Below are positions 46,081-52,973 of a DNA stretch of 64,000 nucleotides, in pieces. The translations under genes and the position numbers were made by a program. Each line of letters begins with the position of its first letter. The first letter of the stretch is position 1. Source of the stretch: Bacteroidota bacterium (GTDB lineage: Bacteria > Bacteroidota > Bacteroidia > B-17B0 > Aurantibacillaceae). Location: positions 62,001 to 126,000 of the forward strand of contig JACPOC010000041.1 of assembly GCA_016185125.1 (NCBI GenBank). The letters are read 5' to 3'. Below the pieces are notes generated by a model. That model ran no database searches and was not told where the DNA came from. It saw only the letters and a program-made list of their open reading frames with translations.

Positions 46081-46302
46081 TAACCACATAAGGGACATAG
46101 AAAAAATTAAGAAACACATAGATTGTCGCTTCGCTCCAATGCATTTAAATACATAGGAATATGAAAATAACTTAAAACACATAGTGACATAGAGTACATA
46201 AATTGGATGCATCTTCTTCCTATGTGATCTGTGCGGTTCATGCTTCTCCTTTCTATAGGTTCAGTATTGCAAATCGCTTTTCTATGTGATCTATGTGGTT
46301 CA
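46081..46302. mobile_element. gene-less, MITE-like inverted-repeat unit
   Basis: The ends are inverted relatives of the repeats that bracket the GxxExxY gene at 51252. The left end reads TAACCACATAAGGGACATAG and the right end, on the other strand, reads AACCACATAGATCACATAGA. Weaker inner copies occur near 46112, 46173 and 46219. No open reading frame of interest lies inside. The unit fills the 255 bases between the hisH fragment and hisF2. That it moved as a unit is inferred from the paired ends only. Confidence 0.5.
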
Positions 46303-50520: not shown

Positions 50521-50640
50521 CGGAATTTAAGCCACAGATTACACAAATTACACAGAGTATGAATTATTTTGAGCTCGTTGATCATCGGAAATTAAGCCGC
50601 AGGTTCCACAAAGTCGGTTGATCAATTTGTTTAAAAAAAT
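50521..50640. repeat. short leader between the antiterminator and epimerase genes, with diverged repeats
   Basis: The 124-base gap holds two partial copies of one phrase, AAGCCACAGATTACACAAA at about 50527 and AAGCCGCAGGTTCCACAAA at about 50593, each preceded by GGAATTTAAG or GGAAATTAAG. They also share TTGATCA. The spacing of about 66 bases suggests a degenerate duplication. The gap could hold the antiterminator target, but I cannot show one. Confidence 0.45.
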
Positions 50641-51151: not shown

Positions 51152-51172
51152 TTAAACCACATAGGCACATAG
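51152..51172. repeat. left inverted repeat of the GxxExxY unit
   Basis: This 21-base sequence has the core ACCACATAGGCACATAG. The reverse complement of 51708-51728 matches it with two differences. It lies 13 bases upstream of the antiterminator start codon. Confidence 0.75.
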
Positions 51173-51251
51173 AACCTCTACATGATTTGATAAGAACTGT
51201 AAACAATAAAATTAAAATAAAAAAAAACATAGAGCGTTTAAAGAAGGAATA

Positions 51252-51698
51252 TTATTTAAGATCTCTGAAGTATTCATTAACCAAAGTTTTTTGTCCATTG
51301 GAAAAAATATTAGAACAATTAAAGTTTAAAAGTAGGCCTTTAGGGGCTTTGAGTAATTTCATATAAGTAAGAAGCTGCGCGTCGAAAAGAGTATTCATTT
51401 CATTAACAGCTTTTAGTTCCACTACAAGGCAGTTCTCTACAAACAAATCGCATCTAAATTCCATATTTAATATTCTTGTTTTATAGAGAACTGGAATTTT
51501 TATTTCAGTGGAAAAATTCATTTTTCTGCCGCTAAGTTCCTCGATCATGCATTGATGATAAATGCTTTCAAGTAAACCGGGTCCCATAGTTTTGTGAACT
51601 TCAATAGCAGCTCCTATAACTTCATACGTAACATCATCAAGAAATTGTTTGTTAAGGACTTTTTCTATTTCTATGTTCTCTTTTTGACTCATTAGCAT
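51252..51698 (-). CDS. GxxExxY-family protein, PD-(D/E)XK nuclease-like fold
   Basis: This 148-residue protein carries the naming motif GPGLLESIY near 40-48, with EVIGAAIEVHKTMG before it. Residues 80-100 have MEFRCDLFVENCLVVELKA, a D...E-x-K pattern like the nuclease-fold core. The function of the family is not established; it is usually short, and found in many scattered copies in Bacteroidota genomes. The gene has its own inverted-repeat borders (51152-51172 and 51708-51728) and interrupts the region just upstream of the antiterminator. It may be the coding part of a mobile unit. Confidence 0.85.
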   Translation of the reverse strand: MLMSQKENIEIEKVLNKQFLDDVTYEVIGAAIEVHKTMGPGLLESIYHQCMIEELSGRKMNFSTEIKIPVLYKTRILNMEFRCDLFVENCLVVELKAVNEMNTLFDAQLLTYMKLLKAPKGLLLNFNCSNIFSNGQKTLVNEYFRDLK

Positions 51699-51707
51699 CT
51701 CTATAAA

Positions 51708-51728
51708 CTATGTGACTATGTGGTTTTA
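51708..51728. repeat. right inverted repeat of the GxxExxY unit
   Basis: The plus strand reads CTATGTGACTATGTGG and then TTTTA. It is the inverted partner of 51152-51172 with 19 of 21 bases matching. It lies ten bases upstream of the GxxExxY start codon, so the gene and its borders span about 577 bases. Confidence 0.75.
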
Positions 51729-51776
51729 TTTTACTGAAAATTTCACAGCTTCGCCACCTCAGTCACAACCGAGTTT

Positions 51777-51833
51777 TAGTTATTAGTTTTAAGTGTTTAA
51801 TAGCGAAGTATTAATAACTAAACATTAAACACT
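51777..51833. other. two interleaved inverted repeats (pseudoknot-like order)
   Basis: TAGTTATTA (51777-51785) can pair with TAATAACTA (51812-51820), and AGTGTTTAAT (51792-51801) with ATTAAACACT (51824-51833), giving the order A-B-A'-B'. It lies directly after the stop of the winged-helix gene at 51839. It may end that transcript, or it may be a low-complexity relic. All arms are perfect but AT-rich. Confidence 0.35.
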
Positions 51834-51838
51834 CAACA

Positions 51839-52396
51839 CTATTTACTACTCCAGATAAGCAATGGATGCAAACCCGGCTCCTGTATTTTTTCCAGATCAA
51901 ACTCATCAGGCAAATAATTGATGAATTTAATTTTTTTATTTATCTTTTTCTCCGCCTTACCAATCAATTCTACGAGGTAGGGTTTGTTAATATCTCCAAC
52001 CAAAACCAAGTCAATTACATCGGTATCCATTCCCTTTGATAAATTGCCTATCAAATAAACTTTTTCCAGTTTTCCTATGCGCTGAAGAATATAATCAATT
52101 ATGTGATCAATACCCGTTAGCTTTAATACAATGCTATTAATATCTTTGAATAAGGGATGAGACGTATTTGCCTGAAAAACTTTTTTATTACCTTCATTAG
52201 AAGATTTAAGAAATCCGGCATTCTCAAATCTATTCAGTTCTAATCGAATGGAGTTAGTAGATTCATTAAATTCCTCTTCTAAACCCCGCAAGTAGGAGGT
52301 CGTATTGCTGTTTAAGAAAAACTTGTAAAGAAGTTTAATCCGGGTTTTTGAAGATATAAGTGCGCCTAACATGGATTGAGTAGTAAAATTACTCAA
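51839..52396 (-). CDS. winged-helix DNA-binding protein with nucleotidyltransferase-like C-terminal domain
   Basis: This protein (185 residues) has an N-terminal winged helix (SSKTRIKLLYKFFLNSNTTS, then EEFNESTNSIRLELNRFENA). A C-terminal half has KVYLIGNLSKGMDTDVIDLV, which resembles the strand-helix-strand core of small nucleotidyltransferases with the GxxSxG region altered. Proteins of this kind often lie at the upstream edge of polysaccharide loci in Bacteroidota. It could regulate the locus, but no target site is visible. It reads in the same direction as the locus. Confidence 0.75.
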   Translation of the reverse strand: MSNFTTQSMLGALISSKTRIKLLYKFFLNSNTTSYLRGLEEEFNESTNSIRLELNRFENAGFLKSSNEGNKKVFQANTSHPLFKDINSIVLKLTGIDHIIDYILQRIGKLEKVYLIGNLSKGMDTDVIDLVLVGDINKPYLVELIGKAEKKINKKIKFINYLPDEFDLEKIQEPGLHPLLIWSSK

Positions 52397-52449
52397 TATT
52401 CAGCAATTCTCCAAATCCTTTTTTATATTATCCCCGCTCTAGAGAAACT

Positions 52450-52537
52450 TGTCCTTTCGAGTAGATTTTTACTCGCTAAGAGTAAAATCGTATCGAGAAA
52501 GGGCATACCACACAGCTCTCGATACAATTTTACGCTC
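52450..52537. repeat. S unit, first copy, with three mutually pairing arms
   Basis: Arm 1 is 52453-52474 (from CCTTTCGAGTAG to TTTACTC), arm 2 is 52480-52502 (from GAGTAAAATCG to GAAAGG), and arm 3 is 52516-52537 (from CTCTCGATAC to ACGCTC). Arm 2 can form a hairpin with arm 1 or with arm 3 but not both. The second S unit keeps the same three arms, and its two changes lie in arm 3. Confidence 0.7.
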
Positions 52538-52546
52538 CACTTCAAA

Positions 52547-52736
52547 TTTACTCTACCTGACAAACGGCATTTAATAGCATTATTAATCATTTAAATCATA
52601 TCTATCGGCGTTATCTGCGTTCTGTTCCGCTATCGCTTCAATTTACTCTACCTGACAAACGGCATTTAATAGCATTATTAATCATTTAAATCATATCTAT
52701 CGGCGTTATCTGCGTTCTGTTACGCTATCGCTTCAA
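52547..52736. repeat. two direct 95-bp R units
   Basis: Units at 52547-52641 and 52642-52736 differ at only one place in the shared part (TTCCGC against TTACGC). Each runs from TTTACTC and the ACCTGACAAACGGC segment to CGCTATCGCTTCAA. Two more units follow at 52983 and 53078 with TATACTCGAG at the head. Confidence 0.9.
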
Positions 52737-52767
52737 TTTACTCGAGCTGACAAACGAATTTAGTACT

Positions 52768-52850
52768 AAGATCGCTTCGGGAGAAAATTCCCTCGCGATG
52801 ACGGTGATAAAAAACGTCATTGCGAACGACGTAAGGAGTGAAGCAATCTT
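52768..52850. repeat. interspersed palindromic element of the TCATTGCGA type
   Basis: Two 36-base arms (52768-52803 and 52815-52850) share outer ends in inverted order: AAGATCGCTTC ... CGCGATGACG and, on the other strand, AAGATTGCTTC ... CGCAATGACG. The central 15 bases of each arm differ. Sequences containing CGTCATTGCGA and GAAGCAATC are widespread interspersed repeats in bacterial genomes. Confidence 0.7.
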
Positions 52851-52885
52851 TAACAATGGAAAGCAACAAGCATGGCTTCGAAGCA

Positions 52886-52973
52886 TGTCCTTTCGAGTAG
52901 ATTTTTACTCGCTAAGAGTAAAATCGTATCGAGAAAGGGCATACCACACAGCCCTCGATACAATTTTGCGCTC
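52886..52973. repeat. S unit, second copy
   Basis: This copy matches 52450-52537 at 86 of 88 positions (a C for a T and a G for an A near its end). It is followed by R units at 52983 and 53078, as the first copy is. Confidence 0.85.

Follow-up and report, generated by a model that had tools for sequence, protein, structure and literature searches.

The GxxExxY gene at positions 51252 to 51698 (minus strand) of the window, by which we mean the whole 64,000-nucleotide stretch of DNA analysed, lies between two short inverted arms, and similar arms bracket GxxExxY genes in many phyla. Recurring brackets, presence or absence in sister species, and scattered gene-less copies together look like a small nuclease-repeat element of the RAYT/REPIN kind. 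We lean somewhat toward the view that this is such an element, working as RAYT/REPIN systems do but with an unrelated enzyme.

The whole element is 573 bp long (51154 to 51726, no strand assigned) and has a conserved leader block on one side and the UpxY antiterminator gene on the other. Its site is intergenic, in the space from a 185-aa gene to UpxY, and not within rRNA. The two arms (AAACCACATAGnCACATAG; 51154–51172 and 51708–51726) are inverted and complementary at 18 of 19 positions, with 535 nt between them. The 3′ (downstream) arm, AAACCACATAGGCACATAG on the plus strand, holds CACATAG units at 51158–51164 and 51166–51172. The 5′ (upstream) arm is inverted and reads AAACCACATAGTCACATAG on the minus strand, with units at 51716–51722 and 51708–51714. 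Each arm consists of two direct copies of the unit with a one-base spacer. Taken as 21-base border repeats, the arms match at 19 of 21 positions in inverted order, as the initial annotation had claimed, and the coordinates bear out its placement of the left repeat 79 bases beyond the stop codon; the right arm starts 9 bases from the start codon. With up to three mismatches allowed, the 19-base arm sequence has 3 matches in the window against 0.07 expected, and the only two occurrences of the 16-base pattern CCACANAGNCACANAG in the 3.34 Mb genome are the two arms. These counts, together with the excess of arms over control ORFs given below, ruled out a chance repeat.

Between the arms, no ORF other than the GxxExxY gene reaches 80 aa. 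A transposase of any known class (DDE, HUH, or Ser/Tyr), the hallmark of an insertion sequence, was not found there. Searches of the region for known RNA families gave only sub-threshold matches. No defence or phage family was matched, and PADLOC returned no hit to a known defence protein model.

Profile searches, a structural model, and conserved residues all point to a minimal PD-(D/E)XK nuclease fold for the 148-aa product. It scored 133 bits against TIGR04256 (curated cut-off 35) and 129.2 bits against PF13366 PDDEXK_3 (cut-off 22), which places it in the GxxExxY family by both profiles. AlphaFold2 predicted a PD-(D/E)XK core with a pLDDT of 94.5. The top solved match to this model in Foldseek was SSO0001 (4ic1), with lambda exonuclease and RecBCD among the weaker hits; by sequence, the nearest PDB chain gave no significant match. 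In the family alignment, E44, D84, and K96 never vary, and E94, Q108, and Y112 seldom do, giving a layout (D84, E94-x-K96, Q108-xxx-Y112) that we take to be of the RecB/Cas4 type. The GxxExxY protein resembles Cas4, RecB, and lambda exonuclease in its fold and in the layout of its active site (D, ExK, QxxxY), but it stands alone and has only ~140 aa. The predicted alpha-beta core and the conserved D and (D/E)xK, by which the PD-(D/E)XK superfamily is recognized, make it a member. The nuclease-like core ascribed to GxxExxY proteins in the initial annotation agrees with PF13366, the AlphaFold2 core, and the conserved catalytic residues. GxxExxY genes scoring above the family cut-off were present in 48 of 60 sampled genomes. 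A separate scan of genome contigs used the closer alignment set (A2), the larger one (A1) being too diverse for it.

Inverted arms were far more frequent around GxxExxY genes than around control ORFs. The arm score was that of the best inverted repeat between the 500 bp upstream and the 500 bp downstream of a gene, with a threshold of at least 14. By this measure, arms flanked 58 of the 81 GxxExxY genes sampled within the genus and class, as against none of 115 control ORFs at the same loci. A broader sample of 80 further loci, with 77 GxxExxY genes counted, covered Bacteroidota, Ignavibacteria/Chlorobi, Planctomycetota, Verrucomicrobiota, Acidobacteria, Proteobacteria, Chloroflexi, Treponema, Hydrogenedentota, and others. 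There the threshold was reached by 54 of the 77 genes and by 13 of 258 control ORFs, several of the top-scoring controls being further elements of the same sort. About 30% of GxxExxY genes have no arms at this score. The initial annotation would have given up a link between repeats and gene had such repeats been equally common elsewhere; the excess at GxxExxY genes is large and extends across many phyla.

In most arms, a 7-bp unit, C(A/G)CNNA(G/T), is repeated in tandem with a period of 8–10 bp. Its variants include CACATAG, CACTAAG, CACAGAG, CACAAAG, CGCAAAG, and CACAGAT, among others, and ACGAAT, CATATAAG, or ACAGGAT takes its place in divergent GxxExxY lineages. Both flanks of one gene carry the same unit, which varies from gene to gene: 3.5 of the 4 variable positions match within a gene versus 2.3 of 4 between genes. 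Identity between arms is 90% in unit columns versus 64% in spacers, a comparison that somewhat favours the unit columns since the unit pattern also served to locate them. The conservation of the unit and its homogeneity within a gene fit recognition of the unit by a protein, and not pairing alone. At one locus in G009 (L334, contig C73, ~1267–2367), the arms of the GxxExxY element have grown into CACATAG arrays of 17 and 14 units.

The type of repeat unit follows the lineage of the GxxExxY protein. Placing the unit labels on a tree of 158 GxxExxY proteins takes 38 changes versus 69 for shuffled labels, and none of 200 shuffles gave a number as low. CACATAG, CACTAAT, and ACGAAT are each confined to one side of a branch, and several GxxExxY genes that differ in their units can coexist in one genome, as with CACATAG and CGCTGAT in G018. 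Because shared descent alone can yield clustering of this kind, it shows linkage, not recognition. We infer that the GxxExxY protein itself recognizes, binds, cuts, or moves the repeats.

The upstream arm is usually close to the start codon, at a median distance of 21.5 bp. This would suit an element that acts only on its own gene and has no mobility, with the protein binding the arrays as an operator or attenuator or with the arms pairing in the mRNA, and so would the perfect conservation of the arms in three species at the fad-oxidase/tatD site described below. We consider autoregulation of this type improbable, as an operator needs neither an inverted downstream copy nor gene-less copies elsewhere, and the presence or absence of whole units, their nesting, and their turnover would be left unexplained.

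Orthologous sites within the genus carry both filled and empty alleles, as expected of a mobile element. Each relative compared represents a species, and many of the assemblies are drafts, so that gene presence and absence may include assembly gaps, while empty sites were read as continuous sequence. At the window locus, 24 genomes of the genus have the 185-aa gene, the conserved leader block, and UpxY side by side with no GxxExxY gene there, and in 23 of these 24 UpxY follows 76–314 bp after the stop. The site is occupied in G000, G029, and G009, where the element lies in between, and probably in G016. G003, the sister of G029 within a supported clade that includes G000, has an empty site. 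The leader block itself (GTGACTGAGGTGGCGAAGCTGTG, of GTGACTGAGGTGGCGAAGCTGTGAAA type; 51741–51766 in the window, minus strand) is conserved in its place before UpxY, next to the 185-aa gene, in almost every genome of the genus that was examined, and is possibly a leader RNA or a loading site for UpxY.

A second locus, between a fad-oxidase gene and tatD, shows the same polymorphism. The intergenic region is 65–116 bp long and empty in 23 genomes, and measures 564–653 bp with a complete element in G018, G006, G025, G061, and G035. G034 has an element remnant there with a nested CACTAAG-type hairpin. Further copies lie between a histidine kinase gene and its LytTR regulator gene, and at a fourth shared site G061 retains only an internal-deletion derivative with arms. 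Flanking sequences of the elements are TTAA/TTTAAA-like and palindromic and merge with the arm extension; there was no unambiguous target-site duplication.

The empty sites and insertion polymorphism that the initial annotation had called for were therefore found at both loci. Its proposal of a possible mobile unit holds as far as presence and absence among close relatives goes; single copies are long-term residents at orthologous sites. GxxExxY orthologues at fixed sites have a dN/dS of ~0.06–0.14, and at the fad-oxidase/tatD site neither arm differs between G018, G006, and G025 even though gene dS is ~1, which indicates that gene and arms are maintained together. Such resident copies under purifying selection are nearer to RAYT genes than to actively hopping IS elements.

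Patchy presence at fixed orthologous sites is also what a homing-type, free-standing nuclease would produce if it cut the empty allele and was copied in by homologous repair, with the arms as its recognition sites. PD-(D/E)XK homing enzymes are known, which lends this explanation some precedent. The arms, however, accompany the element, and the empty sites examined lack them; nor does homing account for gene-less hairpins at many unrelated sites. We regard it as very unlikely.

Such gene-less copies are present in the window at 46083–46300 (no strand assigned), where a CACATAG hairpin (AACACATAGTGACATAG ... CTATGTGATCTATGTGGTT, 46174–46301) has a degenerate copy alongside. This hairpin folds only weakly better than its shuffles. 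Dispersed through genomes are CACATAG arrays in inverted pairs ~85–170 bp apart, most with a central hairpin; G018 has up to 86 arrays. Six gene-less copies folded as DNA formed hairpins with z-scores of −3.2 to −8.4. Three neighbouring intergenic sites in G018 and its relatives (L128, sites 1–3), compared across eight sister species, were either empty or held a CACATAG hairpin or a hairpin of another unit. One copy, at L315, is an internal-deletion derivative of a gene-bearing element. With that exception, alignment of interiors against shuffles did not support the idea that most gene-less hairpins are plain internal-deletion derivatives, and descent of their interiors from the gene was not detectable.

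At least three CACATAG arrays were found in 18 of 19 genomes with a gene of the CACATAG lineage versus 3 of 21 without one (Fisher p = 2 × 10⁻⁷), an association that is not significant with phylogenetic correction, which leaves only two supported independent pairs, both in the same direction. The exceptions are G012, G020, and G028, which have arrays but no gene, and G033, which has the gene but in which the exact pattern finds no arrays.

Genes for the TIGR02436 four-helix-bundle (S23/IVS) protein in the same genomes also have tandem-unit inverted arms, reaching the score of 14 in 15 of 30 cases. Their units, such as TTAGGT, GTTTCAGG, and AGTAGAAA (loci L095–L124), are different ones, and these elements are an apparent parallel system. 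Since these genes are bracketed alike with other units, the architecture does not depend on a nuclease, and the mover may be a third factor. In the window, an imperfect inverted repeat of TTAGTTATTAGTTTTAAGTG-like units at 51777–51848 resembles the arms of four-helix-bundle elements.

The shared architecture leads to the alternative that a repeat or MITE-like family is mobilized by a host or unlinked factor, with the GxxExxY and four-helix-bundle genes as captured cargo or accessories and neither acting on the repeats. The arrays without a gene in the three genomes named above and the persistence of most GxxExxY copies at orthologous sites are also compatible with cargo. Against it, the unit tracks the GxxExxY lineage, the class of unit differs between the two protein families, and the GxxExxY gene is under purifying selection with its active site conserved. 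We rate the cargo explanation as unlikely, though worth keeping in mind, and prefer the RAYT/REPIN-like element.

RAYTs are Y1 HUH transposase-like proteins, each flanked by its own flavour of REP, with inverted doublets dispersed in the genome (Bertels & Rainey 2011, PMC3116915). The two systems are alike in that the gene is flanked by lineage-specific short repeats, gene-less inverted hairpin doublets are dispersed, and the gene is mostly vertically inherited (PMC3116915). The flanking repeats of GxxExxY genes match dispersed inverted doublets in the genome, with G012, G020, G028, and G033 as exceptions, and their flavour is specific to the gene lineage. Instead of Y1 HUH, fold and profiles indicate a PD-(D/E)XK nuclease here; single short palindromes there contrast with inverted arrays of a 7-bp unit here; and in our case the brackets enclose the gene as one unit, for which empty sites exist. 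Having an enzyme of another superfamily and a unit-array repeat, the element falls outside the RAYTs, though it probably works like one.

Two other known systems are more distant. The 23S rRNA IVS with its S23 protein (TIGR02436), as in Coxiella (PMC4990558), likewise is ~0.4–0.6 kb long with one small ORF between inverted repeats. It lies in rRNA and encodes the S23 four-helix bundle, whereas the GxxExxY protein is unrelated, its repeat units are others, and its elements are intergenic. MITEs and non-autonomous IS derivatives share the inverted ends, small size, dispersed copies, and internal-deletion derivative (L315); they differ in that here no transposase of a known class lies between the arms, copy interiors share little sequence, and the arms are tandem arrays.

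A RAYT/REPIN-like mechanism would begin with the nuclease recognizing arrays of its own unit, probably as hairpins in single-stranded DNA, and nicking or processing them. The bracketed segment, mostly a gene-less hairpin and rarely a gene-bearing one, would then be copied or moved to TTAA-like intergenic sites, a step that would draw on host replication and repair enzymes. More tentatively, and with rather more doubt than confidence, GxxExxY could be a new class of mobilizing enzyme: a stand-alone, ~140-aa, Cas4-like PD-(D/E)XK nuclease that recognizes arrays of its own 7-bp unit and moves its own gene and gene-less hairpins without any known transposase or recombinase, with the four-helix-bundle (S23/IVS) elements as a parallel. 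Among open PMC papers, we found no description of this element and none of its repeat strings in print; the name GxxExxY appears incidentally in two of them. Lineage-specific arrays give GxxExxY a concrete, testable function, with the 7-bp unit array as its probable substrate. If this is correct, it would account for the repeats of CACAGAG, CACAAAG, and CGCAAAG type that surround these genes in many environmental genomes, and a second, unrelated nuclease would join the REP-RAYT style of partnership between repeat and nuclease.

Two further repeat regions lie in the window. A degenerate array of CACAGAT-type units (CCACAGATTACACAAATTACACAGAG) without a GxxExxY gene adjoins an epimerase gene at 50528–50620, and intergenic direct repeats of gtcctttcgagtagatttttactcgctaagagtaaaatcgtatcgagaaagggcatacca and a second unit occupy 52440–52960.
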